Virus record (IMG/VR): IMGVR_UViG_3300020171_000040
Span: 1 to 51,230 of that record
DNA from: a virus
Length of the DNA: 51,230 bases
Direction: 5' to 3' (one strand)
The translations under genes were made by a program, and so were the position numbers. Of this stretch, positions 5,423 to 51,230 are shown piece after piece. Below the pieces are notes generated by a model. It saw only the letters and a list, made by a program, of their open reading frames with translations. It did not search any database and had not been told where the DNA came from. The stretch's first letter is position 1. Every line of letters starts with the position of its first letter.

Positions 5423-8400
5423 TTAACATTTTTCTTCTATTTCCTTACCTTTCTCAAAATCTATTTCCGTTTGTACAAATTGACCTTTGACTGATGTACC
5501 TATTACATTAACCTCTTTAAGTTTAATCCTACTCTCATTACCAGTATGATAAATAGTAAACTTAGCCCCAATTTTTTGTAAATAATCTATGAATTGACTA
5601 TCTACACCTGGCATATCCCCTACTACAAATTCAGCACCATTTTCCCTTGCTCTATTAATATATAACTTAGTTTGTTCAGTTAATGATTTATTTTTTAATT
5701 CTCCATTTCTTGCTAACATAACTATTTTAACATCATTTGACATTGAAGTAACAGCATCTTGTTTTACAGGATAATAATTCCATTTTTCATCCATAAAATG
5801 CTGCATAGTAGTAGAAGTAGATGTTTGTCTTTTACCACCACTCATTTCTCCAATAGCACTGTCAGCAACTTTTCTCATAGCTTTATCCTTACCATCCCCT
5901 TCTGGAATACCCTTACCCATATTTTCAAACCCACCCACATAACCTTGAAATCCTTTTGCCGCAAGTCGCTTAACAGAACGAACAACCCTATTATCTTCAT
6001 TGAACTGCAAGTCTAAAGCTCCATCAGCATAATCAACATCTATTTCTTCAGCAACTGACCTAACCATCTTAGTAGTTACTTGTTGTTTTTCAAATGGTAT
6101 TTCCTTGAATTTATCAACATTATCTTTAACTACCTTGATACGTTCTGCAAGAGATTTTTGTATTATAAGATTGTTATATTTTATAAACGAGGTCTCAGAT
6201 TCAATACCCATTTCAGTTGTTACAATACCATTTGATAAAGCACCTTTCTTATTAATAGGAACATATAGTGCTAGGTCTTCTGGTTTCTTAGTTTCTGGGT
6301 TAGTAATTTTAGATATACCAACCATTTTAAAGAGTGCCACATTCCCACCAATAATTTCACTTTCTTCTGTTCTAGCCTGTTGTTTAAACGCCTTTTCCAT
6401 GTCACTCACGTCCGCTACTTCTTCCCCAGTACGTGGGACATTGTATTGTGATATACTCCCATCACCAGTTAAGGTAACATAACTAGGATATACTACATCA
6501 CCATCTTCATTAGTACCTAAGGCATATTGAGAACCTCTACCAAAATTCAATGCAATATAATTTATAAAACCATTTTCATCCCTATTTGGTTGATAAGTCA
6601 TTAAACCATCTACCTTAGGTACATATCGCCAATTATACCAATTGTTTTCAAAGAAATCCTTTTTTATACTTGTATAAAACTCTACTATTGAAGCTGGGTC
6701 ATTGAGTTCCTCTAACATCTGCCTTATGAATTTATTAAAACTAGCGGGCTCATACTTTTTAGTTTTAGTATTCATCATATTTATTTCCTTGTTAGCAGAG
6801 GTTGGTATATACCTCAGGTAATCATAATACCTGTGTTTAAAACCAGTTGAATAGAATGCGTATAAGTATAATTGTCTACCAAGTAACTGAACTGTAGGAT
6901 CTTCATGTTCTATAATAGCTTTGAAATCTGCTATATAATCATCATTTTCCCAAACATCTGATGCAGACATGAATGGAGTAGTAATATAATTTTCAACAGC
7001 AGTTAGTGGTTTAGAATCCACTTGTAACATTTCAATAACCTTATTATCTTTTAACTCTTCATAGTATTTAAACCTAGGTGATTTGACTTTACTTATAGTA
7101 GCAAATACAGACTCATCATTATTTAAATATAAAGTACTTAATCTAGCTCTAGTCATCCCTATACCAAACCTCGGATCACTAAAGAATTTAGAAGTAACAG
7201 CACTGAATAAATCCCCAGTCATACTATTTATAATAGACATTCTAAAATTTTCACTATTTGGTATAGAATTAGCCAAACCCCAAAACATCCTACCAAACCC
7301 AGTGGAACCAATAATACTCTTATTATTAAATATTCTCTCTAAATAGAAAATACTATTATCTAGTAAAGTTGATAACATAGTACCATTCTCTACATATTCA
7401 CCCTTGCTGTTTATAAACCTATCTAAGTTTATAAAATCTCTCCTGTTTTCAGGTAAATCTAATTGTTCTATTTTAATCAAGTTATTTATGAAATGTCTAA
7501 ACTCTACTGGATTGCTACCAAAATCTTTAGTATCAACCCTGGTATTTAATACAAGACTATTTACCTTTTCGCCATCTCTAAATATCCTCATAAAATATTC
7601 AAGGAAATTTAGTTGCCGTATCTTATGTTCTTGACTTGTGTTTTTATTTGGATTTAACCCATCCATTAGTAAAGATTCATCTGACATCAATTCGTCAAAT
7701 GGGATGTATAGATCTTCTTCTCCCAAATTAATATCCAAGTCCTCATCAGTTTCAACTGGCCTATTTAAAGAAGCAAGTATTTGACGTTTAGCACGTTTGT
7801 ATGCCTTATCAATAGCGGTCCCAGGTTGATACTCTGTTTCTTCTGAAATAACATGTCTACCACCACCAACATTGTAAAACTCCCTTGCTAGTTTAACTAT
7901 AATAGGTTGTGCAAGAAAATCAAATGTACTTACACCAAAACCTAATCTTAAAAGTAGAGATGTCACAGAATACGTTGCGCTGTTAACATTAAGTTCGGAC
8001 ATATAATCGTCTTTAATAGCATCCACATGTCCATCGAGCATGGCAGACAACCAGTCTGTTACATACTTTAAATCCCCACCTTCTATCAAGTCGAGTGGAA
8101 TAACACCCTTTTCATTTATATCTTTACCATAATTAAAATTAGTACGAAGTTTAATGTTAGCCTGTTGTGTAAGGGAGTGGTTAGCATTCTGTAATGCATA
8201 TACCCCAATACCTTTTACTGAAGTCATAAATTTAAATTTAGTAGCAGACTGGTATGCTGGCGTCTCTGATTCAAGTGCTTCAAGAGGTATGGTTTTACCA
8301 CCACTCCTGGCAGTTATATACTTTCTTCTCCTTGCTTTCATTTCACCAGTAAGAGTACCTAAAGGTAGGGTTGTGTTCCTAGCATGTTTAATATCAGATA

Positions 8401-11400
8401 TAACTGTTTGGAATATCTCAAATATTCTATTCTCATTTGCCCCACTGGTATTTTGTGCCTCAATTGATAATTTACTAAAGTCTTCTACTGTACCAATTTT
8501 ATTAGCACCAATTAATAATTTTAAAATAACAGGTCTTTGTTTAGCCCATTTTTCATCATTGAATGATTCAATAAAGTTATTGTCATTCAATTCATCTAAC
8601 TCTCTTTGTTCAGTAGATACTATGTCTTCAAGGTATTGCTTACTAATATCATCAGTTGCAGCCTCTAGAGCCTTTTTATTTGCTTCTAAACTCTCTATTA
8701 TATTTCTCCTTATTATTTCATCCTGATCAGATAAAATCTTAGTCTCGTTATAAGCCCCTTCTTCAGAGTCCTTTAGTATCTCAGATGTTTTTGCATCAAA
8801 TATAGTACGGTCCCTTCTATATGTTTTATATAATTCACGTAATTTATTTTCATATCTTTCTTTAACAATCTCTACAGCATCACCTTCTAAAAACTTAACT
8901 TCTTCTAGTTTGCCATTCCTCATTATATAGTTCTTCATCATAGTGAATAACTTATCTATGTCAAAGTCAGAACCAGTGAGAGTGGTGAATTCAAGAGGTA
9001 AATGTATTACTTCACCAGCTTGATCTGGTAAATAATCAACTACCGTTAAATTAACAACTGAATTTTGTCCCTGGGTAGGAATACGATACCCCATTATTTG
9101 CATCTCTAACGGAAGGGTTTTTATTCTTTCTTCATGAGTTAATTTTTCATAATTTGGGATAAGTCTTTTAAAAGCACGGATAGGTACTCTACATTCCATA
9201 TTTATAATCCCAGTACCTTCGGAATTTACTTCATAAAATTTCAATTCTGATTTGAAATCCTTTTCAAGACCTGCCAAACCAGTACTGGAATATCCATAGT
9301 CAGATACTTGTATTAATTGAGAACCCGGTAACTTTAAATCTATCGTATTACTTGTAACAAGACGCATTAATCTTGAATACATCCAGGTCCTATCTGGAAA
9401 TGCATCTAGTTCAAGATACATTTTACCATCAGAATCAAGTCTTAAAGCAGACCTGAAATCATCAGACTTACGTGCTTTTGTAGCATCTTTACGTAACATT
9501 GAAATCAAACTATGGTTATTGACTATACCATTATGTATACCAAGAGCTGATTCAACATGATCTCTACCAATATTACTCACGGCCATCCTTGATTTTGTAA
9601 GAGCGTTAAGTAAGTCTCTACCAGAAGCAAAATTACCGTATGGTTTATCTGTTATTATATTTGAAGATCCTATTTTAAATACTTGACTACCCACCATTTG
9701 TTTACTTGCTACCTCATGGGCATCCGTGGTCTGTTGTTGACGTAGGTTTCTCCAATATCTAAGTTCTACATTTATATCTCTTAAATTTGCTAACTCGCCC
9801 CTGATCTCTTTGTTTTTGTATAAATTATGAGATGTAGTCATACCAACCTTTATGGCAGTATCGTAATTAAGAACGTGTATTTTATTTAATTTCTTATTTT
9901 CTATTTGAGTTTCAGGATCAGAAACATCATCTGAATATTGTCCTGTCTTTTCCATCCTGTGTAAAACCTCCTCAAGATGTGTACCTTTCACAAGTCTTGG
10001 GAATAGGACTGACATGGCCATTTTATCATATACAGTTCTATCAATACCATTTTCATTATGCTGACCAAAATAAACAGTTTTTTGTGGGTTGAGAACAACA
10101 TATAACGCCTTTATCTCTTCTGCTGGTGAAAGTACCTTAGTGGACATTAATAATTCAAAAGCATGTTGCACTTTCTTAGGGAATGCCCCAGACCGTTTTA
10201 ACATACTCTTATACATACTGGGTGATATAACAGCACTACCATCTGTTGCATCTACACGTTTAAATCCACTCACATTATTTAAAGACAGATCCTCAGCTTT
10301 TTTAAAATTATCAGGATTATCCTTATCTTTTTCATCATAATACTCCTTCCACAACTTAGTATGTAAATCAAGTAATGATTTATAATATAATGATTCAAAT
10401 TCTTGAGTTCTTACAGTAGCTGCATTATATGATACCTCTGTATCACCTTTTATATTTTCAGCATATGGTGTACCAGTGGAACCTAGACCATAATACCTTT
10501 TATATAAAGCTTCTACTATTTCACCTGAGTTAGTATCTTTGGCAAACAAAGCTGGGTCTCCCATAAATATTCTTTCAGATTCTATTATAGACATCGTATA
10601 ATTAATAAGATATTCACCCAAAGTAGCTCTAACACCATAGTCTATATCCTCACCCCTGTCTGATTCATATGTTGCTGTGGAAGATGGGTTTATAAGACCT
10701 GGAACATATCCGTTTGTTTCAGTATCTAATGCTATAACACCAAGAGTATTAGCATATTTTAATTCATTATTTATTCTTTTATTAAGTACAACGGTTAGTT
10801 TTTTAGTAAAGATAACTTTATTTTTATCATCAAATTTATCTATAATATCAAACCCCCTAAACTTGATTAAGTTTACAGCATTCGCAGCATTAGTATTATC
10901 TTGACCAGTATAGTGATAGTTAAGAATTAATTGCTTTCTTAAATTGTCCTTCTCTTCACCAGTCGCCTTTTTAAAATCTTCTATGAGACTTACAGCCACG
11001 GCTACTCTTTCATTCTCATCTCTATAAGCATCCCAGAAATAGTCTACTACTTCTTTTGAAAACCCAAGAGATTTTGTTTTAGGATCATACTCAGTTATAA
11101 CATTCTTAAATCTAGGAACGCCGTCCATAAAAAAGTATGTTTTACGTTGTGCCATTATTGGGAAAGGGAGGAGTCCTTCACTCATCATCAAATGAAAACG
11201 AACTAAATAATCTTCCCTCTCTGTCATATTAAGATACCCACGACCCTTGTCTTCCCTACCAACCTCTTTGAGATAACTATAAGTAACTAGTTTAAAATTC
11301 TTCCTCATTTCTGCTGCAGCTGCAACTTCTTGTTCGTTAGTTAAATCATTAGGAGTCATCATCCTTAATATTCTACTACGTTTAGTCCATAGATTATTAA

Positions 11401-14400
11401 CCCTTTCTTCAACATACCCTTCTTTATTCTTTATCCAATTAACTACTTTAGTTGCATGACAATCATCTGCAAATGTATTGTATTTATGTTTACGAGTAGT
11501 ATCACCATTACCAGGACCAACTTGCATATCTGCTTTTTTCTCAGGGTGTATTTCTATATAAGCACGTGCTATATCTTTTACAGCACCTATTTTAAATAGA
11601 CTATCCTCAGCTCTATCTACCTTATCATTATTTGCTGCAGATTCTGATGCTTTTGATGATATTAAAGTAGCTAGTTCATTCTCTGTCCAGTTATACAAAC
11701 GATCCATATCATTATTGATTGTTTCGCCTTTTATAGAATTTATCACACGTCTGATAGTACTCCCATCAACATATATACCAAAATCAGAAAGTAATTCTTC
11801 TATCCTAGGTAAGAATTTAACTAACTTACCTTCATAGTTTTTACTTTTGTTTTTCATTACATCAGACATATCCTGGGTTAATTCTATATATCTTTTTTCA
11901 ATCGCTTCAAAAAACCCTTTGTTATATTTCTTTGAATAAACCTTTTGGCTTTTAGTATCTGCTATATAGTTACCTTCTTTATCTTTTAATAACCTACCTG
12001 TTTTATCTTTCTTAGCATCATACTCTTCTACAGTCATTACTATATTTGGGTCATTGAAGAAATTATTACTCCACTGTCTAATATTATCATTTATTGCAGA
12101 TTGTTCAGCAGATCTGTTTAAATAAAAAATAAAACCCCTTGATGATCTTCTAAAAGTTAAATTTATAAAATCATGCTCAGCACATGAAAGTGTACCAAAA
12201 AATTGTTGCCTAACATTCTCAGACTCCCCTTCTAATTTATCGGCTAATTCAGCAAATGGGGCATAACTATCACGTTCTGCAATAAATTTAAGTTCAACTA
12301 TCATTTCCTCTATTGAGTTTAAATGGTGCAAAGTATGGAATGCTTTAGACCAAACTGCTTTAAAGTTCACTGGTTCATGGAGCATTGTTATTGGGTTAAC
12401 TTTAGAGACTCTCCTCAATGCCCCAGAGTCTTTGTCTTCAATTAATACACTATCCTCACTAAGTGTTGCAATCATCCATTTTATAGCAGGTAAAGCGGTA
12501 TCTTTTTTATTAACCTCATAAGCAACCCCTATGTAGTGATCACCTAATCTAGCTATACTTTCATTATCTTCTGTGTCAATGTCCGTAAAAGCATCCTCAC
12601 TTACCCCGACTTGTTTTATACCAATGGAAAGAAAATAACTATCTATTGCTGGTTTTATAACCTGTTGAAAAATATCATACCTACCTTGTTCATCTTTTGT
12701 ACCAAGTATTTCATCGTACATTTCATACAAATGTCTAGCATTATCTCTGTCATCTTTAGTGTTTTTTGCATATTCAGCATTCGCCTTATAACCATCTCTT
12801 AATTCTTCAAGGTGTGGAATAAGTAACATAAGATCTATTTTCCCTACATCATTAAGATCCTCCACTTCACTTTTGATAAGCACAGTCTTTGCTAAAGCAT
12901 TGGTTATTGTCCTAAAGTCTTTTCTGTTATTCAAAGTATTAAATTCAACACCTTTTATAACAGCCCTTGCATATAATTCATTACCAAGACTCTCCTTGTT
13001 TATCTCTAAAATAGAACTATTTCTATACTTACCATTACGTATTTGTTTAAACAACTGACTTACTTCAGCTTCAGACAACCTACGTTCACCATAGAATAAG
13101 GATTTTATACCCTGTACTATCCAGTCAAAGAATTTTTGGACTAGACCAGGTGCTTGTTGTTTATTATCAGATAGTATAAAAGACCTAAACTTCTCAGCAA
13201 GAATCTCTTCTACTTGTCTGTCAGTTGATTCTTTATCTAGTTTATAAGCAAGTCTAGCAGCACGATAAAAACGTTTACGTTCATCTGGAGTTAAGTAACC
13301 TAAACTAACCCGATGAAAAGCTTCATGATACACAGTACCTGTTTCAGCAGCTTCATAAAGTAATATAGCAGAATAAGAGTATAAAGCAAAGTTCTTCTTG
13401 CCCTTGTAAATAAGGTCTGTTATTCTATTCTTAAGTTTCCATTCTTCTTCAGCAATACCAACCACATCAAATGCCCACTTAATTTCCTTTTGGCGCACTT
13501 CTTTTGAATAACCCTCGTATGGAGTTGCTACTTCGGGTCTTGCAAACGGTGGTTCATCTGATTCATTATTATTTGCTAGTTTAGCAAGGTCTTCCATGGA
13601 TGGTGGAGCTGCTTCCTTTTGCTCAGATACTTTCCTACCTGTCCATCCAACTGTATCACCTTTAACTAAATAAAAATATTGATCAGATTCTTTATGAAAT
13701 ACTTCTACTTCTTTAGTTTGTGGATGAATGGACTTTATAACAACTTCAACACTTTCTGTTGAATTTTCTGCTTGATATACTAAAATATCACCAACCCCCG
13801 TAAATCTTTTTAAGATTTTATCTAAATAATCCTGTGTTACTTTCTCATAGGTTTCTATTTTAGTAGCATTAACAGTAGTTTCAACGGGTGCACCAGTTGC
13901 TTCTGTAGATGTAGAACTATTCTTATCTATATTAGGTGTAGTAGCGGCTTTAAATTCTTCTTCTAATGTCCTATTTGTTTTACCAGCAAGTCTATCCTCT
14001 ATATAATCAAATATTGCTTGGTTCTTTTTAGATCCCTTACCAAATTCTACACCAAAACTTGTCAGTGTGTAATTAACAAATTCTATTATTTCATCAATAC
14101 TATCGTTATCTCTTACAAAATTTTCTATACCTTTAGAAACAGTACGTATAACATTTTCATCTTCAACTACTTCTGAAGTTTCTATACTTAATAATTCCCT
14201 ATTTTTCTTCTCAAGGAACCTATTCTTATAAGGGGTGTCCTTTGTAACAACCGTTGGTTTCTTTTCTTCCTTCTCTTGTTTAGTATCAGAGAATTTAGCA
14301 TCTTCCTTATTTTTAAGATCCTCATTTGTTACTACATCTTCTGCAACAGGTTGTATTTCAGGTCTAACTAATGGTTTAACTTTACTTGTTATATTTAAAC

Positions 14401-17400
14401 GACCATTTTTTACAAGGTTTAGGTTAACAACAGGGTCCCTAAATAAACTACCTTGTTCATTACGAGACACGTCTGTAACAACCATGTTATTCTTTATAAG
14501 AAAACTGGCATATGTTTGTCCTTTTGCTCTATTGTAGTTCTTTGTAATAGTTTTACCGTTTACGTCTTTAGTTTTAAACGATATGGTAATCTTACGATCA
14601 TCAAGAAAATCACCATTTAAGTTTAATGCACCCTTACCTAAAGTAGGATTAAACAATTGAGTTGCAAATCTTTTATTCTCAATCAACCAATTTATAAAAT
14701 GCTCCCTGTTTCGTGAAAGATCTGATACTTCACCTGGGACGCCACGTTCATTTAAATCTATAGTATAAGGTACATTTTTTTCATTATTACCATAAGCTAA
14801 TACAACTCGTTGTCCTTTCACATGTAAATATAAACGTTTATCAACCATAACCTTTGCCAAGATAGGATCAGTACCATAACGTTTCTGAAACCTTAGGTTT
14901 CTTGGTTCTGTTATCTTTTCACCATGTACTACAAACAAATCAAGGAGTTCACCAGCGGTTATACCAGTTATAGTAACCCCGTTTCTTTCCTTTACTGCAT
15001 CACTAAATTTAACCCACTGTGCTTGTAATGGTACAGTACCAACACGTCTCTTCATGATCTTTGCTTGACCAACTAAAAAGAATGCATCGAGTATTAAACC
15101 AGCAAGTTCTGGTTCAAAAGTACCTTTATTTAATTTTATAATACCAGTTTCATCATTAAGTCCTTCATTCGCAAGATATGCGTATATACTACCCTTACCT
15201 TGCATTGATTTAGTAGTTTCAGTAATTGGACTATTCTTATCTAAGTATAAAGTGGTTAATTCTGGAGTAAGATCATTTGATTTTGTTATTGCTAGTTTAA
15301 TATCCTCTGCTTTAAGACCCAATGCTATTTCTAGGTTTTGATTTCTCTCCGATGGGTTAATTGCTTTACTTGCTGAATTAGGACTACCCTTACTCCTATC
15401 AAGACCACTAGTGTGCACTTCACCACCCTGTAAAATAATTGAAAGAAGATCCCTACGCAACTCTCTATTCTTTTTATATTGTCTTTTTTTATAATCAACT
15501 ATACTTTTCTTCCTTTCATCCTGAGTAGCCCCAGTATTTTTTATTTTTACTGGTACACTTGAATCTGGAACAAACTTGCTAGCATGTAAAGATAATCCTC
15601 CCTTATATGGTGTACTATTTATATTAAGTTCTATATCTACACTGATACCATCAACAAAAGAAGTATACGATTCGTCAGTAGCTTCATCTAAAAGGGTCAC
15701 TATCTCAGCCTTTGTTAACTTATTGCCACTCTTAAATTTCTTTAATATACCACGTTGTTTATCAGTAACTACTATCTTTAATATGGTTCTTACATAATTA
15801 TCACTTTCAGTTTTAGTTTCGTGGTATAACCCCGTTGATATTAAACTTTCTATTACCTTCTTTGTATATGGATCATTTAAGTTTATTCTATATGTAGCTG
15901 TGGAACCTTTGAAACTAGTATTCTTATTATTGATAGCCTTTACAAGACCTGGATTTCTATTATTATGTTGTTTAGCAACATAATCCCAAGTAGAATAAGA
16001 AAGTTTATTCATATTTGTAAGAGGTCCTTTAGTATCATCTATAACATCATCCTCTTCTTCTACTTCAACTTTCTTACCAAGTAATGCCTCATCCTTTTCA
16101 CTAAGACTATCATAAACATCGTCTTCAGTATTAGATAAGGAATCTGCTACCTTTTCAAAAGTACCCTCTTGTTTAACAACAGTTTCACCTCTTTCATTCT
16201 CTATAACGAAAGATGTAATATCGTTTTCATTAGTTTCATCAGCTTCTTGAATGCCTACAATCTTACCATTGATTGGTTCTTTTGTATCCTCATCTTCATA
16301 AACAATTGAATCATCAAGTTGTATACTACTATCTTTATCTATTGTATCGGGTTTAAGTAGACCAGCTTCCCTTAACAATTCCTTTTCTCTAGTAACACTA
16401 AGAGGAGTTGATGTACGTAATTCATCCATCATCTCAGTAAGTTGTATTACTGAAGCATTGGCCCAATTTAATCTTTGCGATTGTTTATAATACTCATCAA
16501 CCTGATCTTGTGGTAATACTATCTTTTTATCTGCTTTTGCTTCTTCTGCAGTACGTATACCTTTTACCTTAGTTTTCTTATTACCAATTTGTTCATCAAT
16601 TAAATTATCAAGTCCAGCTAACTCAAATTCAATTTTTGCAAGCGTTGCTATTATTTCTTTCTTTTCTCTTGGTGAAGCAGTTTCAGCAGTTTCTTCTTGT
16701 CTTTTCTTGAGGGTGGCTACTGTACGTTGTAGTGATAATCTATCTTGTTTATATAGTTCGGCTTTTCCACCAGGAATAGATAGGTCTCCAATCCCCTCTA
16801 TATTTTGCCCAGCACTTTCTACCGCCGTTTTTAATTTCTTAGCATTTTCAACAGTTGAATCAAGTAGGAACTTAGTATTAGCCATTACCTGAGCTTTCGG
16901 TTCTTTATCCTTCTCTGGTATTTCCTTATTTGTAGCATTCTCTTTTAAATACCTATCATAAAGATCACTAACTCTATCAATCCCCCTCTCTACTTGTTCG
17001 TAGAAAGCTGGGTCTTGCTTAAGTCTACCTTGCGTTTCAGGATCAACACCATATTGTTCAAATGAAGTACCTTCTGGGGCCTCCCTCATTTGTTTCATCA
17101 TGTCCTTTAGTGCAGCAACTGTGTTTGTTTTCTTTGCTTTCATTGCAAGAGATACAACAAATGCAGGGGCAGCTCTCTCAGCAATTAAAGGATCATTATC
17201 AGCAAGTGCTGCATCATATTCAGAAAAGGCTTGTTTGAGCATAGGCCCAAATGAAGTAACTGTTTCAAGTTGTGCTTTGTTTACTGCTTGCTGGATATTA
17301 TAATTTAGACCTTTCATGCTTACCTGCATAACACCTGCACCAATACCACCCCAAAAACCAGCAGTCCACATCTCCCCATCATCATAATTAGCCTTTAAAA

Positions 17401-18511
17401 CATCCATCATAGAATGTTTAACATTATGATTAGGATCGGCAGCATTACGTGCCATCAAATTTGATTGCTCATTTACAAGGAACTGATAAATTTCTTCCCC
17501 TGTTTCCCCAATCATATCCTTAGCAACTGCACCAACTCTTTTAGCTCTTGTTGTTAAAGAACCATAACCAAGATACTTTTGTACAGAAGGGGCCAATTCT
17601 GCCATTGCGGCTTTTTCAGCAGCAACACCACCTTTTGCAAACGCACCTAATTTATTAAGTAATATATACTGTGGTATATCTTGTAATAATAATATCCACT
17701 GTTTCTTGTATGTGTTAGATGCACCTAATGCTGCTACATCTCTAGCATCAACATCAGATAAACCCCTTTGTTTAGCATTTGCATAAGCCTCTTTATATAC
17801 TCCAGATGCCTCCATTAAATTCTCAGCATGCCTGGACCATAAAGCAGTAGTTATACCACGAAATGCTGCAGTTTTAGCAATAGCCCCTAAACCAATAGCA
17901 GAAGCTGCACCACCAGTAGCAGCAGCAAGTAACATAGCTGGAGCAACCATACCTATAGTAGAACCAACAGATATTGCATTCTCAGCCCACCATGATACTG
18001 AACCTGGATCAAACTTACCTTGTTTGTAAGGATCAACATATATAGGAAATCTTTCTCTACCCCTCTCTTGTAATAATTCAGCAAATCTAGATAAGCCATT
18101 ACCAAATTCCTGTTGACTATTTTCTGCTAAATCGACACCTAATGTTAAATCAGAACTATACGCAATTGTCTGTAATGCTGTTGAACCAACCTCTATACCA
18201 AACCTAACTATAGAATTACCTATCATACTAGTTGCTGTCTGGCGTTCGTGTAATAATCCCTGACTATACATTGGGTCTAATTCCGGGTTATAACTACCTT
18301 TACCTAACAGTTTTTCATAAGGTGCAACACTTCCAGGAAATGAAATAGAGGATGCTTCACCAGCAGAAACGTCTTTCCAAGAAAGTGGTTTCCCCTGCTT
18401 TTTATCCTCTGTTAATCCTGTTTCAGGATCTATTGGTAAAGTGGTCAAACCACTATTTATGTCTTTCCAAGATAACCTCTCTACTTGATTATCAAGTATT
18501 ATTTCTGCCAT
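5423..18511 (-). CDS. giant crAss-like virion RNA polymerase protein (4362 aa, multidomain)
   Basis: The crAss-like virion RNA polymerase is a single-chain, two-barrel enzyme that is packaged and ejected to transcribe early phage genes. Here the signature DFDID (DxDxD, metal-binding aspartates) is at residues 3182-3186, after GS and before KLF. The protein begins with two copies of an LSWKD motif (residues 13-17 and 43-47) and a Gly/Ala-rich hydrophobic stretch at about 178-220. Acidic, lysine-rich linkers near residues 800 and 1400 separate modules. HEAFH at 1729-1733, with EEILAE about 35 residues later, is a zincin motif. The C-terminus (about 4258-4340) contains VGDMPGVDSQF and resembles a SLOG/YspA-type nucleotide-binding fold. 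At 4362 aa it is far larger than the roughly 2200 aa enzyme of Cellulophaga phage phi14:2, so it is probably a fusion or polyprotein. RNA polymerase assignment is strong by motif and synteny; the accessory domains are less certain. Confidence 0.9.
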   Translation of the reverse strand: MAEIILDNQVERLSWKDINSGLTTLPIDPETGLTEDKKQGKPLSWKDVSAGEASSISFPGSVAPYEKLLGKGSYNPELDPMYSQGLLHERQTATSMIGNSIVRFGIEVGSTALQTIAYSSDLTLGVDLAENSQQEFGNGLSRFAELLQERGRERFPIYVDPYKQGKFDPGSVSWWAENAISVGSTIGMVAPAMLLAAATGGAASAIGLGAIAKTAAFRGITTALWSRHAENLMEASGVYKEAYANAKQRGLSDVDARDVAALGASNTYKKQWILLLQDIPQYILLNKLGAFAKGGVAAEKAAMAELAPSVQKYLGYGSLTTRAKRVGAVAKDMIGETGEEIYQFLVNEQSNLMARNAADPNHNVKHSMMDVLKANYDDGEMWTAGFWGGIGAGVMQVSMKGLNYNIQQAVNKAQLETVTSFGPMLKQAFSEYDAALADNDPLIAERAAPAFVVSLAMKAKKTNTVAALKDMMKQMREAPEGTSFEQYGVDPETQGRLKQDPAFYEQVERGIDRVSDLYDRYLKENATNKEIPEKDKEPKAQVMANTKFLLDSTVENAKKLKTAVESAGQNIEGIGDLSIPGGKAELYKQDRLSLQRTVATLKKRQEETAETASPREKKEIIATLAKIEFELAGLDNLIDEQIGNKKTKVKGIRTAEEAKADKKIVLPQDQVDEYYKQSQRLNWANASVIQLTEMMDELRTSTPLSVTREKELLREAGLLKPDTIDKDSSIQLDDSIVYEDEDTKEPINGKIVGIQEADETNENDITSFVIENERGETVVKQEGTFEKVADSLSNTEDDVYDSLSEKDEALLGKKVEVEEEDDVIDDTKGPLTNMNKLSYSTWDYVAKQHNNRNPGLVKAINNKNTSFKGSTATYRINLNDPYTKKVIESLISTGLYHETKTESDNYVRTILKIVVTDKQRGILKKFKSGNKLTKAEIVTLLDEATDESYTSFVDGISVDIELNINSTPYKGGLSLHASKFVPDSSVPVKIKNTGATQDERKKSIVDYKKRQYKKNRELRRDLLSIILQGGEVHTSGLDRSKGSPNSASKAINPSERNQNLEIALGLKAEDIKLAITKSNDLTPELTTLYLDKNSPITETTKSMQGKGSIYAYLANEGLNDETGIIKLNKGTFEPELAGLILDAFFLVGQAKIMKRRVGTVPLQAQWVKFSDAVKERNGVTITGITAGELLDLFVVHGEKITEPRNLRFQKRYGTDPILAKVMVDKRLYLHVKGQRVVLAYGNNEKNVPYTIDLNERGVPGEVSDLSRNREHFINWLIENKRFATQLFNPTLGKGALNLNGDFLDDRKITISFKTKDVNGKTITKNYNRAKGQTYASFLIKNNMVVTDVSRNEQGSLFRDPVVNLNLVKNGRLNITSKVKPLVRPEIQPVAEDVVTNEDLKNKEDAKFSDTKQEKEEKKPTVVTKDTPYKNRFLEKKNRELLSIETSEVVEDENVIRTVSKGIENFVRDNDSIDEIIEFVNYTLTSFGVEFGKGSKKNQAIFDYIEDRLAGKTNRTLEEEFKAATTPNIDKNSSTSTEATGAPVETTVNATKIETYEKVTQDYLDKILKRFTGVGDILVYQAENSTESVEVVIKSIHPQTKEVEVFHKESDQYFYLVKGDTVGWTGRKVSEQKEAAPPSMEDLAKLANNNESDEPPFARPEVATPYEGYSKEVRQKEIKWAFDVVGIAEEEWKLKNRITDLIYKGKKNFALYSYSAILLYEAAETGTVYHEAFHRVSLGYLTPDERKRFYRAARLAYKLDKESTDRQVEEILAEKFRSFILSDNKQQAPGLVQKFFDWIVQGIKSLFYGERRLSEAEVSQLFKQIRNGKYRNSSILEINKESLGNELYARAVIKGVEFNTLNNRKDFRTITNALAKTVLIKSEVEDLNDVGKIDLMLLIPHLEELRDGYKANAEYAKNTKDDRDNARHLYEMYDEILGTKDEQGRYDIFQQVIKPAIDSYFLSIGIKQVGVSEDAFTDIDTEDNESIARLGDHYIGVAYEVNKKDTALPAIKWMIATLSEDSVLIEDKDSGALRRVSKVNPITMLHEPVNFKAVWSKAFHTLHHLNSIEEMIVELKFIAERDSYAPFAELADKLEGESENVRQQFFGTLSCAEHDFINLTFRRSSRGFIFYLNRSAEQSAINDNIRQWSNNFFNDPNIVMTVEEYDAKKDKTGRLLKDKEGNYIADTKSQKVYSKKYNKGFFEAIEKRYIELTQDMSDVMKNKSKNYEGKLVKFLPRIEELLSDFGIYVDGSTIRRVINSIKGETINNDMDRLYNWTENELATLISSKASESAANNDKVDRAEDSLFKIGAVKDIARAYIEIHPEKKADMQVGPGNGDTTRKHKYNTFADDCHATKVVNWIKNKEGYVEERVNNLWTKRSRILRMMTPNDLTNEQEVAAAAEMRKNFKLVTYSYLKEVGREDKGRGYLNMTEREDYLVRFHLMMSEGLLPFPIMAQRKTYFFMDGVPRFKNVITEYDPKTKSLGFSKEVVDYFWDAYRDENERVAVAVSLIEDFKKATGEEKDNLRKQLILNYHYTGQDNTNAANAVNLIKFRGFDIIDKFDDKNKVIFTKKLTVVLNKRINNELKYANTLGVIALDTETNGYVPGLINPSSTATYESDRGEDIDYGVRATLGEYLINYTMSIIESERIFMGDPALFAKDTNSGEIVEALYKRYYGLGSTGTPYAENIKGDTEVSYNAATVRTQEFESLYYKSLLDLHTKLWKEYYDEKDKDNPDNFKKAEDLSLNNVSGFKRVDATDGSAVISPSMYKSMLKRSGAFPKKVQHAFELLMSTKVLSPAEEIKALYVVLNPQKTVYFGQHNENGIDRTVYDKMAMSVLFPRLVKGTHLEEVLHRMEKTGQYSDDVSDPETQIENKKLNKIHVLNYDTAIKVGMTTSHNLYKNKEIRGELANLRDINVELRYWRNLRQQQTTDAHEVASKQMVGSQVFKIGSSNIITDKPYGNFASGRDLLNALTKSRMAVSNIGRDHVESALGIHNGIVNNHSLISMLRKDATKARKSDDFRSALRLDSDGKMYLELDAFPDRTWMYSRLMRLVTSNTIDLKLPGSQLIQVSDYGYSSTGLAGLEKDFKSELKFYEVNSEGTGIINMECRVPIRAFKRLIPNYEKLTHEERIKTLPLEMQIMGYRIPTQGQNSVVNLTVVDYLPDQAGEVIHLPLEFTTLTGSDFDIDKLFTMMKNYIMRNGKLEEVKFLEGDAVEIVKERYENKLRELYKTYRRDRTIFDAKTSEILKDSEEGAYNETKILSDQDEIIRRNIIESLEANKKALEAATDDISKQYLEDIVSTEQRELDELNDNNFIESFNDEKWAKQRPVILKLLIGANKIGTVEDFSKLSIEAQNTSGANENRIFEIFQTVISDIKHARNTTLPLGTLTGEMKARRRKYITARSGGKTIPLEALESETPAYQSATKFKFMTSVKGIGVYALQNANHSLTQQANIKLRTNFNYGKDINEKGVIPLDLIEGGDLKYVTDWLSAMLDGHVDAIKDDYMSELNVNSATYSVTSLLLRLGFGVSTFDFLAQPIIVKLAREFYNVGGGRHVISEETEYQPGTAIDKAYKRAKRQILASLNRPVETDEDLDINLGEEDLYIPFDELMSDESLLMDGLNPNKNTSQEHKIRQLNFLEYFMRIFRDGEKVNSLVLNTRVDTKDFGSNPVEFRHFINNLIKIEQLDLPENRRDFINLDRFINSKGEYVENGTMLSTLLDNSIFYLERIFNNKSIIGSTGFGRMFWGLANSIPNSENFRMSIINSMTGDLFSAVTSKFFSDPRFGIGMTRARLSTLYLNNDESVFATISKVKSPRFKYYEELKDNKVIEMLQVDSKPLTAVENYITTPFMSASDVWENDDYIADFKAIIEHEDPTVQLLGRQLYLYAFYSTGFKHRYYDYLRYIPTSANKEINMMNTKTKKYEPASFNKFIRQMLEELNDPASIVEFYTSIKKDFFENNWYNWRYVPKVDGLMTYQPNRDENGFINYIALNFGRGSQYALGTNEDGDVVYPSYVTLTGDGSISQYNVPRTGEEVADVSDMEKAFKQQARTEESEIIGGNVALFKMVGISKITNPETKKPEDLALYVPINKKGALSNGIVTTEMGIESETSFIKYNNLIIQKSLAERIKVVKDNVDKFKEIPFEKQQVTTKMVRSVAEEIDVDYADGALDLQFNEDNRVVRSVKRLAAKGFQGYVGGFENMGKGIPEGDGKDKAMRKVADSAIGEMSGGKRQTSTSTTMQHFMDEKWNYYPVKQDAVTSMSNDVKIVMLARNGELKNKSLTEQTKLYINRARENGAEFVVGDMPGVDSQFIDYLQKIGAKFTIYHTGNESRIKLKEVNVIGTSVKGQFVQTEIDFEKGKEIEEKC

Positions 18512-47215: not shown

Positions 47216-49594
47216 TTATTTTGGGTTACTTGTAGCTGGTTTATTAGCCACGATTCTTTTAATCTGAAGTTCAACATCTTTCTGATCTTCAGCTTTCCTA
47301 TTCTTTCTTGCAGCTTCTTTAATCTGCTCATCTTTCAATCTAATATCTTCTTTGATCTTCTCCGCTTGAAGCATCACCTTTTGATATTCCATATCATTAC
47401 CATCCTCATCTACCTCACCATCACCATCACCATCTCTACTAGAATTAGCTTGGATGATAGCTACTTGTAGAGATGTTTCTGCCTTACGTATAGAATCCTC
47501 TTCTTTAATACGAAGTGCTTCTTGTTCCATTTGCATGGCTAGTTGTGCCTGAGCCTGTTGTGCCTGCTGTTGTGCAGCCATCATTTCAGCCTTACTATTA
47601 TCTATTTCCATCAAACGTTTCTTAATCATCGACATGTTTTCACCTGTTATAATCTCAGAAGCCTCTAATAAAGTAGCTCCACTTGACATAGCTGGTTGTA
47701 ACATTGACCTCAATGATTGAATATTCTGTTCTTCTTTAGTAGCATCAGTTAAGAATATATCATGATCAGCATATATGAAATCATCTGTAATATCTAAAAA
47801 TATCCTAACGGCATCATTCATTACGTAATGTAACTTTTTAGTTTGTCCACTATTTTCCTGTTGATCACTCCATATACTCTTAGACGCATCTAATAACATC
47901 GTAAGTGCATTCTTTTTAACTTGGTTATGCACCCAAAACAAAGGTTCTGTTATATGAGAAGATTGTATTACAGCTCTTTCAACATTACCAACCAATTCAT
48001 TACTGTGTATAGATCCCTGTCTTTGTTTGGATACACCGGATATCTCACCTATCATATCCTCAATCTTTATCATAAGATTTATATACTCACCCAAAGCATT
48101 AGTCATACTTAAATCCTCAGATGACATCTGATTATATGGTGATGGTTTACCACCCTCACGACCTGGAATATCCCATCCCTCATCATATGGATTAATAAAA
48201 TTAATACCAAGAGCACTTATATAATGCATCCATTGCTCAACAGATATACCCAATCCCTTAGGTATTTGTGTTATATCCATTGTTAATACCTTACCTTTAT
48301 CCCTCGCTAAAGCTAATTCTAACCGATACCATATTATAATATACATATACTGTAACGGTTTCATTATACTAACAAGTGATTTAGGCCTGCTGTTTATATT
48401 ACTGTATATGGTACCACAATAAGGTAATTTCCTATTTGATGGATTATCTATAGAAACATGTTGATAATCAACTGGTCCTATACCAAAATAACCATCCTCA
48501 CCATATCTATATCCTTCCCATATCTCTGGTACCCATTCCCATTTAATCTCCTCACCTGGCCCAGCCTTGTAGGTTTCATCAACCATAGTTTCTTCTGTTT
48601 CACCGGTTTCTGGATTAGTAATCATTAAAAACCCAGTTTTTGTATAAGACCTCCATGTAGTATGATATACTGTTAGCATATTACCATCAGCATCGTAATT
48701 ATTACTACCAAACATCTTGTTAGAAAACTTTTCTTTATACATAACAGAAGGATTATTAACACTATCTGCACCACCAGAAAAGCTAGGTCTACCTTCACTA
48801 TATGCTAATATATCATCTAAATCAGATTCATCTAATAGATCAAAGAACCTATCATATATAGTAGCAGGACTCATCTCCATTCTTCGTAAGAACCAATCAC
48901 CATCTTCTATATATTCAAGATCTGGATCTTTATCATAATCACAATTAACTGGATTGACCCTTTCTAAACTAGGCTCCCCATTTATCACACCTACATAATA
49001 TATCTCTTCACTTGATATAAGAGCATCTTTCCACCCTTTTAAGAACTCATTCTGTAAGTTAAGTTTTTCTTTTAAGTAGTTAAGTGAATGAAATGCAGTC
49101 TCTTCTGATATAGTTTTATAGTTGTATTTCATATATTTTTCAATCTCAGGAGGTGTAATTTCCTGACCTTGTTCATCTTGTTGCCCACCACCTACATAAG
49201 AACTTATATATTGCATTAAGAGATTCTTTTTCTCCTCTTGTATCTTAGTAACAGCATCATAGTTTGTTTGTACTACCTTTATATTAAAAGGACGTTTGCT
49301 TTCTTCCCCAATAAGTAAATCTACTTTAGGTCTAATTATATTAAAGTTCTGCATTTTAGCAGGGAAACCATCCTCAACCTTATATGGATTAGTCACATAT
49401 TTTAGATCATCTTCATTATATTCACTATTGTAAAGACCGTATGCTGTAAGCATAATACCTTTTCTATCAGTACCACCAACAAAACCACTCCCCTCACGAG
49501 CGATTATAGAGTCCACAGACTCGTGTTGCCACTCCTCAGTTTTCTTAGAACGTGCTAATTTTTGTACAGGGAAAGTAGATTTTCGTGTATTCAT
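47216..49594 (-). CDS. portal protein, 792 aa
   Basis: The dodecameric portal forms the DNA gateway and docks TerL. The N-terminal region has MQNFNIIRPKVDLLIGEESKRPF (about residues 80-104), the crAss-like portal equivalent of the conserved wing/clip motif, then LKEKLNLQNEFLKGWKDALISSEEIYYVGV. The middle reads IDNPSNRKLPYCGTIYSNINSRPKSLVSIMKPLQYMYIIIWYRLELALARDKGKV, and ISGVSKQRQGSI follows. The C-terminus (about 665-792) is a long Gln/Glu/Lys coiled coil, suited to a barrel extending into the capsid. It is between TerL and scaffold, as expected. Confidence 0.92.
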   Translation of the reverse strand: MNTRKSTFPVQKLARSKKTEEWQHESVDSIIAREGSGFVGGTDRKGIMLTAYGLYNSEYNEDDLKYVTNPYKVEDGFPAKMQNFNIIRPKVDLLIGEESKRPFNIKVVQTNYDAVTKIQEEKKNLLMQYISSYVGGGQQDEQGQEITPPEIEKYMKYNYKTISEETAFHSLNYLKEKLNLQNEFLKGWKDALISSEEIYYVGVINGEPSLERVNPVNCDYDKDPDLEYIEDGDWFLRRMEMSPATIYDRFFDLLDESDLDDILAYSEGRPSFSGGADSVNNPSVMYKEKFSNKMFGSNNYDADGNMLTVYHTTWRSYTKTGFLMITNPETGETEETMVDETYKAGPGEEIKWEWVPEIWEGYRYGEDGYFGIGPVDYQHVSIDNPSNRKLPYCGTIYSNINSRPKSLVSIMKPLQYMYIIIWYRLELALARDKGKVLTMDITQIPKGLGISVEQWMHYISALGINFINPYDEGWDIPGREGGKPSPYNQMSSEDLSMTNALGEYINLMIKIEDMIGEISGVSKQRQGSIHSNELVGNVERAVIQSSHITEPLFWVHNQVKKNALTMLLDASKSIWSDQQENSGQTKKLHYVMNDAVRIFLDITDDFIYADHDIFLTDATKEEQNIQSLRSMLQPAMSSGATLLEASEIITGENMSMIKKRLMEIDNSKAEMMAAQQQAQQAQAQLAMQMEQEALRIKEEDSIRKAETSLQVAIIQANSSRDGDGDGEVDEDGNDMEYQKVMLQAEKIKEDIRLKDEQIKEAARKNRKAEDQKDVELQIKRIVANKPATSNPK

Positions 49595-49595
49595 T

Positions 49596-51230
49596 TTATA
49601 AAAATTTGTTTAAATAATTATTACCGTCCAGCTCGAATAGTCTATCCTTGAATAACGACTTCTTTGCGAACTCTTTTTTTTCTTTTACTTTAATGTGATG
49701 TAACTCACGTATATATATTATAACCATCATAAAGGACATACAATTATGGGTTGCTATATTTGATGCTATATAGGAATGATCTTCCTCTACTTCAAAATTA
49801 TATACCTTTTCATTTCCTTTTTCTACCCCTATTAATTTAATAGGAGTCCAAAACCCCTCTTCTGTTTCATATTGATAGTTTTTTTTAACTAAATTTATAT
49901 TGTTTACTTCTTGAAATTTCAATGAATGTTTTGCTATTTTATTTATATATTTTCTAGATATCATTAATGAATATTGATCATTATGATTTTCTTTTCTTGC
50001 TTTAATATATCTAATAGATGACCATATTCCATTATCTATTAAGATCTGCCTTATTTGTTTAATTAGAATTTCATATATTCCACTAACTTCAATAATCTCT
50101 CTTTTATACCCGTCATATTTAGCATTCTTTTTCTGATGACCATCTCCTTCTAAATAACCAACGGCTAACATTAATGTATTGGGAGAATTATACACAGATG
50201 CAGATAATTGTTTATTATTAGCTTTTCCACCACTGTCTTCTAAATATCTAGATAATTGTTCAGATCCTTTTGTTACTGATATATAAGTTCCCTTATCTGT
50301 TATTTTAGCCCCCTTAAATATATATTGACGTCCATTATATACTTTACCTTCTTGTTCTCCATATATGTTTAAAATTGATTTTAATTTGAGAGCCATCTCC
50401 ATTTGATCTCCTTGTAAACATATTTTTATTTGATTTCCAGTAACATATCCATCCGATACATACCAACCCAATAAATACATTAGATTATCATCGTGATAAT
50501 ATTTAGTTGGCCAAGATAACTCTTTTCCTAATTTTCTTTTTGGTTGTAATGCAAACTGATATTTATAATTTAAAGCATCCGCATTAACAAATCCAGTATT
50601 ATCTAAACTTTTAGTCCTATCGTTGTGTTTCTTTTTATCTGTATATGCTATATATAAAGGATGGTTACCAGTTGCCTTTAAAGTTTCATAGTTACCTGTG
50701 GTTTTAAACTCCAACACATCTTTATTAGTAACATGTTCATCTAATTTGGTAACTCTCTTAAAATTACCTCTATGAGTTAATACTAAATCCCCCTCTCTAA
50801 TATCTTCTATTTTTTTAAACCCATCTCTAACTGATATATTAGTTCCTTTAACTAAACATCTATCAAAGTTACCCTTTGAATTATATGCTATCAACTCTTC
50901 TAGTAAAGCCTCTGAAAACACCTTAGTCAAATTCCTACGACCTGGTGCATATTCTTCTATTAACCAATCCTTAATAGCACCCTCACCCCAATCTTTGATA
51001 CCCTGTGTCATATGAATACCTTTACCCCTAGTAACAGTACTATTCTTTACAATATCTTTGATTATATCTGGTTGGTCAGCTAAAAGGTATTCACAATGAT
51101 GTCTCATCATATAATCAAACAACCCCTTCTTTTCATTTTCATATAATATCTTAGCACTATAATATACTGATAAAAGTCTTACCTTATCATAAAATTGATC
51201 TGCCGTTTCAGGTCTACCTGTATATTCTGC
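49596..51230 (-). CDS. terminase large subunit (TerL) C-terminal part, interrupted by an intein
   Basis: TerL is the packaging motor; this end is the nuclease domain. The frame is open from the window edge, so the start is outside; an internal TTG at 51122 is not the start. The extein begins with EYTGRPETADQFYDKVRLLSV, a conserved crAss-like TerL segment, and continues through LFDYMMRHHCEYLL to LIAYNSKGNFDR. There a 372-residue intein begins (residue numbers from the TTG codon: 89-460). The second extein is CMSFMMVIIYIRELHHIKVK, ending in NKFL. The ATPase domain and the first nuclease aspartates lie beyond the window. Splicing would join NFDR to CMSF, a standard TerL layout near the last acidic nuclease residue. 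Confidence 0.9.
   Translation of the reverse strand, partial: AEYTGRPETADQFYDKVRLLSVYYSAKILYENEKKGLFDYMMRHHCEYLLADQPDIIKDIVKNSTVTRGKGIHMTQGIKDWGEGAIKDWLIEEYAPGRRNLTKVFSEALLEELIAYNSKGNFDRCLVKGTNISVRDGFKKIEDIREGDLVLTHRGNFKRVTKLDEHVTNKDVLEFKTTGNYETLKATGNHPLYIAYTDKKKHNDRTKSLDNTGFVNADALNYKYQFALQPKRKLGKELSWPTKYYHDDNLMYLLGWYVSDGYVTGNQIKICLQGDQMEMALKLKSILNIYGEQEGKVYNGRQYIFKGAKITDKGTYISVTKGSEQLSRYLEDSGGKANNKQLSASVYNSPNTLMLAVGYLEGDGHQKKNAKYDGYKREIIEVSGIYEILIKQIRQILIDNGIWSSIRYIKARKENHNDQYSLMISRKYINKIAKHSLKFQEVNNINLVKKNYQYETEEGFWTPIKLIGVEKGNEKVYNFEVEEDHSYIASNIATHNCMSFMMVIIYIRELHHIKVKEKKEFAKKSLFKDRLFELDGNNYLNKFL
49743..50858 (-). other. intein with LAGLIDADG homing endonuclease in TerL
   Basis: The intein starts at Cys (CLVKGTNISVRDGFKKIEDI, block A). 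TGNHPLY is block B, VYNFEVEEDHSYIAS is block F, and THN|C is block G with the next extein residue Cys. All splice residues (Cys1, block B His, penultimate His, terminal Asn, Cys+1) are present, so it should splice. Two LAGLIDADG (DOD) motifs, LMYLLGWYVSDG and LMLAVGYLEGDG, lie inside, each with the acidic Asp. Boundaries were confirmed at codon level: TGT at 50856-50858 and AAT at 49743-49745. Splicing restores TerL; the endonuclease would spread it to intein-less alleles. Confidence 0.93.

Follow-up and report, generated by a model that had tools for sequence, protein, structure and literature searches.

The terminase large subunit (TerL) gene of a crAss-like phage is interrupted by a class-1 LAGLIDADG intein of 372 amino acids (49743-50858, minus strand), which splits the last catalytic motif of the TerL nuclease domain. 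The gene lies at the end of the window, by which we mean the whole stretch of DNA analysed, a linear virus record of 51,230 bases. The insert is very probably a mobile intein with a probably active LAGLIDADG endonuclease, which would splice from the TerL precursor and home with co-conversion. Natural pairs of carrier and empty alleles at this site suggest that invasion of the active site rewrites a conserved residue at each arrival.

The minus-strand frame at 49596-51230 is open and continues off the end of the contig, and the TTG listed as its start is an artefact of this truncation. Both the TerL ATPase domain and motif I of the nuclease fall beyond the window. The N-extein portion within the window (50859-51230, minus strand) belongs to the nuclease domain and matched the PHROG terminase large subunit family phrog_6681 (E=4.6e-35), and the C-extein with the stop codon occupies 49596-49742 (minus strand). 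The next downstream gene, at 47216-49594 on the same strand, encodes the portal protein (phrog_6547, E=4.5e-143), and PHROG head families matched both the adjoining portal and the major head protein. Families of the crAss muzzle and ring proteins were also present in the window, and TerL homology together with these neighbours identifies the gene as a crAss-like terL. Its best annotated relatives were Suoliviridae, with 68% identity to cr118_1, and the phage may belong to this family (Delta group). The portal gene of cr118_1 (L012 4554-8141) is annotated with about 1195 amino acids as compared to 792 in the window, and may also hold an insert. No tRNAs or Rfam RNAs were found in the window, which also contains a single open reading frame of 4362 amino acids at 5423-18511 (minus strand).

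The insert runs on the minus strand from the codon at 50858 down to 49743, beginning with CLVKGT and ending with IATHN, and is followed by the TGT codon of the +1 Cys (49740-49742), a position that is Val in relatives without the intein. Splicing block A (50820-50858) holds Cys1 (50856-50858), which is invariant in all same-site inteins, and block B (50655-50696) holds the TGNH motif at residues 63-66, while blocks F and G (49743-49811), VYNFEVEEDHSYIASNIATHN, end with the terminal His-Asn at 49743-49748. The homing endonuclease domain covers residues 118-320 approximately (49899-50507) and contains two LAGLIDADG (DOD) motifs, LLGWYVSDG with D136 (50448-50474) and AVGYLEGDG with D239 (50139-50165). 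Cys1, T63, H66, D136, D239 and the final HN were invariant in an alignment of nine same-site inteins. The class-1 assignment is thus based on Cys1, TxxH in block B, the C-terminal His-Asn and the +1 nucleophile, and that of a LAGLIDADG homing endonuclease on two motifs, each with a catalytic Asp. The Pfam domain Intein_splicing was recovered with an E-value of 4.6e-10 (39.9 bits, curated cut-off 35.8), and LAGLIDADG_3 in two stretches above its curated cut-off (E=3.1e-10). An AlphaFold2 model with the same-site alignment as input had a mean pLDDT of 86.6, and its best PDB matches by Foldseek were PI-SceI (1vde, E=8e-17) and the TliVMA intein (7qsu, TM 0.68), which together with the Pfam match indicate a HINT fold. 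Free-standing LAGLIDADG enzymes came next, and the endonuclease domain matched I-Tsp061I, I-DmoI and PI-SceI. The GC content of the intein is 27.7% as compared to 34% for the window. A search with the single intein sequence returned one distant match only, and no relatives of the intein were found in bacterial and archaeal genomes at the sensitivity used. The identity of the insert as an intein is far beyond chance, and the initial annotation, which had proposed a complete intein with these boundaries and motifs between NFDR and CMSF, was correct on both counts.

NFDR (50859-50870, minus strand) corresponds to nuclease motif III, with the catalytic Asp at 50862-50864 and the AGA codon for Arg at 50859-50861, so that a single residue separates the catalytic Asp from the intein. 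In a MAFFT motif alignment, NFDRVMAF was aligned with YHDDLVMSL of T4 gp17 (D542) and GHDDIVMSL of P74-26 TerL (D429), which places D429 of P74-26/G20c as the counterpart of the NFDR Asp; the HDD-motif Asp is indispensable in G20c (PMC5389553). Residues N634, D636 and R637 were invariant in 26 TerLs. In a model of the intein-free L020 TerL, the last long helix begins at residue 636, with the NFDR Asp at its N-terminus, and the best Foldseek matches were the T4 gp17, T7, Sf6 and HK97 terminases, with an E-value of 5.6e-12 for T4 gp17 (3cpe) and low whole-chain TM-scores. The motif II Glu (LYENE, 51138-51140, minus strand), a presumed counterpart of T4 E458, is also invariant in the 26 TerLs and was assigned by motif order; it was not aligned cleanly by MAFFT to T4 gp17 and P74-26 TerL. 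No meaningful alignment of the TerL profile to these two proteins was obtained with hhalign, also for the nuclease domain alone, and a TerL sequence search against the PDB returned nothing useful. The active-site assignment therefore rests on the motif order in the MAFFT alignment, on invariance and on the fold recovered by modelling and Foldseek. By this alignment with T4 D542 and P74-26/G20c D429, the intein sits inside the last catalytic motif of the nuclease, in agreement with the earlier suggestion that the Asp in NFDR is the last acidic residue of the active site. Before splicing, the catalytic Asp is severed from the helix that it caps, and it follows from this anatomy that the nuclease of unspliced TerL should be dead.

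We compared this site across 106 non-redundant TerLs, ten of which are full-length carriers; the search was enriched for carriers, and 10/106 is therefore not a frequency. Besides the window, eleven same-site inteins were identified (L010, L049, L095, L097, L098, L100, L103, L104, L106 and the partial L105 and L112). L106 is a distant crAss-like TerL, and the other carriers include gut-type lineages. In the remaining 96 orthologues, this very codon is free of any insert. They include close relatives of the window, with 84-86% identity across the shared part, and the closest intein-free TerLs (L020, L021 and L003/L004) read GNFDRVMAFMM. The distant TerLs L008 and L009 also have no insert at the NFDR site. 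These intein-free orthologues, which the initial annotation had advised looking for, led us to reject the idea that residues 89-460, the intein, are a normal TerL domain. In-frame stops were observed in the TerLs of L010, L011, L013 and L103 and in some inteins, which is consistent with TAG being read as an amino acid, and TAG was translated as Gln in these four.

Inteins are usually thought to insert before a pre-existing Cys, Ser or Thr. Here, the +1 residue is Cys in all ten full-length carriers, as compared to Val in 85, Ala in 6 and otherwise Leu or Ile among the 93 of 96 empty sites that are not Cys, and Val occurs at this position even in T4. Since Val at +1 is unable to support splicing, arrival of the intein must change the codon. 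The preceding Arg is encoded by AGA in 11 of the 13 Cys alleles, carriers and empty alleles combined, as compared to 18 of the 93 others (Fisher p=6.6e-6, shared ancestry ignored). The excess of AGA persisted when set against the Arg codon usage of each gene (p=0.005, shared ancestry ignored), and in the Val alleles AGA is rarer than their own codon usage predicts. Furthermore, the window and L049 share a Ser at +3 where their respective relatives have Ala. The AGA/TGT association and the shared Ser fit a short co-converted tract, and the +1 Cys, often with the preceding AGA codon, has apparently been brought by the intein through co-conversion.

A variant of this explanation is that the +1 Cys arose first by mutation in some lineages and made them invadable, in which case empty Cys alleles would be pre-adapted targets and co-conversion would be unneeded. 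We consider this unlikely, though worth weighing, because three empty alleles (L048, L072 and L152) do have Cys at +1, and a joint clade of L072 with its neighbouring carrier L100 was not rejected (AU p=0.074). However, all three have the AGA/TGT junction, with the AGA codon that is typical of carriers, nearly every carrier is surrounded by Val-type relatives, and the +3 Ser of the window and L049 again fits a co-converted tract. Under co-conversion, the three AGA/TGT alleles are possible scars of precise intein loss. The view in the initial annotation that precise loss from such sites is hard follows an established argument, namely that insertion at conserved sites protects inteins from loss (PMC2814812), but precise loss may happen all the same, judging from the three alleles.

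The intein and the TerL trees conflict, which indicates that the intein moves horizontally. The TerL tree required nine changes of carrier state, of which supported branches force at least six, and a more careful tree of 41 rows required eight, with at least seven forced; L017, a short row, was excluded from the trees. In the intein tree, the window, L049, L098 and L100 formed a clade with 100/99 support in which L098 and L100 are sisters, whereas a single clade of their TerLs was rejected (delta lnL 219, AU p about 1e-57 to 2e-57). Identities among these four are 70-77% for the inteins and 63-73% for the exteins. Likewise, dS was 0.75-1.3 by domain in the inteins as compared to 2.1-3.2 in the exteins for window/L049, window/L100 and L098/L100 (NG86, near saturation); extein dS was saturated for window/L098 and L095/L097. 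Vertical inheritance from a TerL ancestor with many independent precise losses is very improbable: the same-site inteins do cluster, they range from gut-type lineages to the distant L106, and the three empty Cys alleles resemble losses, but each of the many precise losses would have needed a reversion from Cys to Val, as 93 of the 96 empty sites are not Cys, and both the tree conflict and the lower intein dS in the estimable pairs speak against it. Judged from these sequence comparisons, there is horizontal transfer of an allele-specific intein among crAss-like phage lineages.

A related intein was also found in a terminase that is not crAss-like (L107 2501-3580). It is inserted in the context HDDILFA/C...HN/S, shifted downstream by four residues relative to the homologous position, and groups with the same-site inteins on a long branch. 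A broader reading, which we regard as plausible but somewhat short of probable, is that one lineage of inteins has become specific to the last acidic motif of terminase nucleases and spread over crAss-like phages and this unrelated terminase, each time forcing the change from Val to Cys by co-conversion and leaving the Cys (AGA/TGT) as a lasting scar after loss.

From what was computed, namely the anatomy and homology of the insert, its position at the active site, the intein-free alleles, the horizontal transfer and the Cys/AGA association, we infer splicing and homing of the window intein, with cleavage, co-conversion and an inactive precursor, as follows. A single TerL precursor would be made with the intein included, and the intein would excise itself by an N-S shift at Cys1, transfer to Cys+1 and cyclisation of Asn372, so that ligation of ...GNFDR to CMSFMM... 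would restore the last nuclease motif. The endonuclease would cleave the intein-free terL codon in co-infecting phages, and repair would copy the intein and at least the +1 codon, whereby the conserved Val would become Cys. By horizontal transfer, the intein lineage would follow one site over the crAss-like phages.

Conditional splicing, for example by a redox response of Cys1 and Cys+1, could instead make the intein a regulatory switch that times DNA cutting during packaging. The interruption of a nuclease active site in an essential late gene would suit such a role, and other inteins splice conditionally, such as that of mycobacterial DnaB. We nevertheless find a switch hard to credit, since the closest relatives L020, L021 and L003 manage without the intein, and both its patchy occurrence and the purifying selection acting on the endonuclease fit a selfish element. 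The dN/dS of the splicing part was 0.11-0.32 and that of the endonuclease part 0.05-0.26 (NG86; dS near saturation), and both parts thus seem to be maintained; the endonuclease is probably active. That the window intein is a relic with a degenerate endonuclease or splicing domain that hampers TerL is very improbable, because, apart from some substitutions of its own relative to related inteins, the diagnostic residues are all intact, the frame is open and dN/dS is approximately 0.13-0.32 for pairs involving it.

Several known systems resemble the one described here. TerLs of Delta-group crAss-like phages are reported typically to carry an intein, and one to hold two (Yutin et al. 2021, PMC7886860); these are in the same gene and the same phage order as the window intein. 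The example described in the relevant passages of that report is of Hint-Hop inteins, with no insertion site given there, whereas we map the site to the last nuclease motif, find an endonuclease of the LAGLIDADG type and report intein-free alleles as well as transfer. The TerL1 and TerL6 inteins of mycobacteriophages (PMC5050341, 2016) are likewise mobile, patchily distributed and located at functional motifs of large terminases, but all seven sites in that study are in the ATPase domain, while the window site and its motif I neighbour are in the nuclease domain. For the haloarchaeal MCM-d intein (PMC10643990), invasion of alleles with a splicing-incompetent +1 residue (Pro) similarly requires co-conversion to Ser; such invasions are few, whereas here no carrier was found without the change from Val to Cys. 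PI-SceI/VMA1 and TliVMA (1vde, 7qsu) share the fold, a HINT splicing domain with an inserted double-motif LAGLIDADG endonuclease, but have only 12-16% identity to the window intein and differ in host gene and target. The mapped nuclease site, the contrast between carriers and empty alleles and the Val-to-Cys pattern are added here, and no description of them was found in the literature searched. With carrier/empty pairs and candidate loss scars, it becomes possible to test each step of the homing cycle, from gain through co-conversion to loss, in abundant gut-type phages.

The crAss-like TerL is a standard marker gene, and inserts in its nuclease domain break its annotation. A second intein lineage was identified at nuclease motif I (IAG/C...HN/CDPYDHD) in 11 TerL loci, and the TerL genes of L098/L108 and L104 have two inteins, at motifs I and III. 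In 5 of the 11 loci, an insert of 226-276 nucleotides without an open reading frame follows only 10 nucleotides (TGY GAC CCG T) after the intein, at CDP^YDHD (L011 7069-7294; L015 3184-3410; L143 3662-3937; L153 3632-3876; L180 3358-3599). Its removal restores the Tyr codon, with a U before the insert and a G at its end, and the insert can pair with the exon in a P1-like helix. Covariation was observed, with 17 of 65 pairs changed on both sides, a value reached in none of 500 shuffles, and with the structure derived from the same alignment. The insert was not recognised by Rfam, yet it resembles a compact group I-like intron; such introns of about 206 nucleotides have been reported in Jug phages (PMC12363816). 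A conserved piece of this intron was found in 42 viral stretches, of which 17 are beside the motif I intein in TerL, 3 in TerLs without a neighbouring intein (L189, L192 and L202), 1 is cut and 21 are elsewhere. The motif I intein and the intron possibly share a homing target. Finally, L006 (320-3421) has a third TerL intein site, located upstream of motif I of the nuclease, AEQP/CFPGDTF...WAHN/CTPAEATL, with a LAGLIDADG_3 domain.
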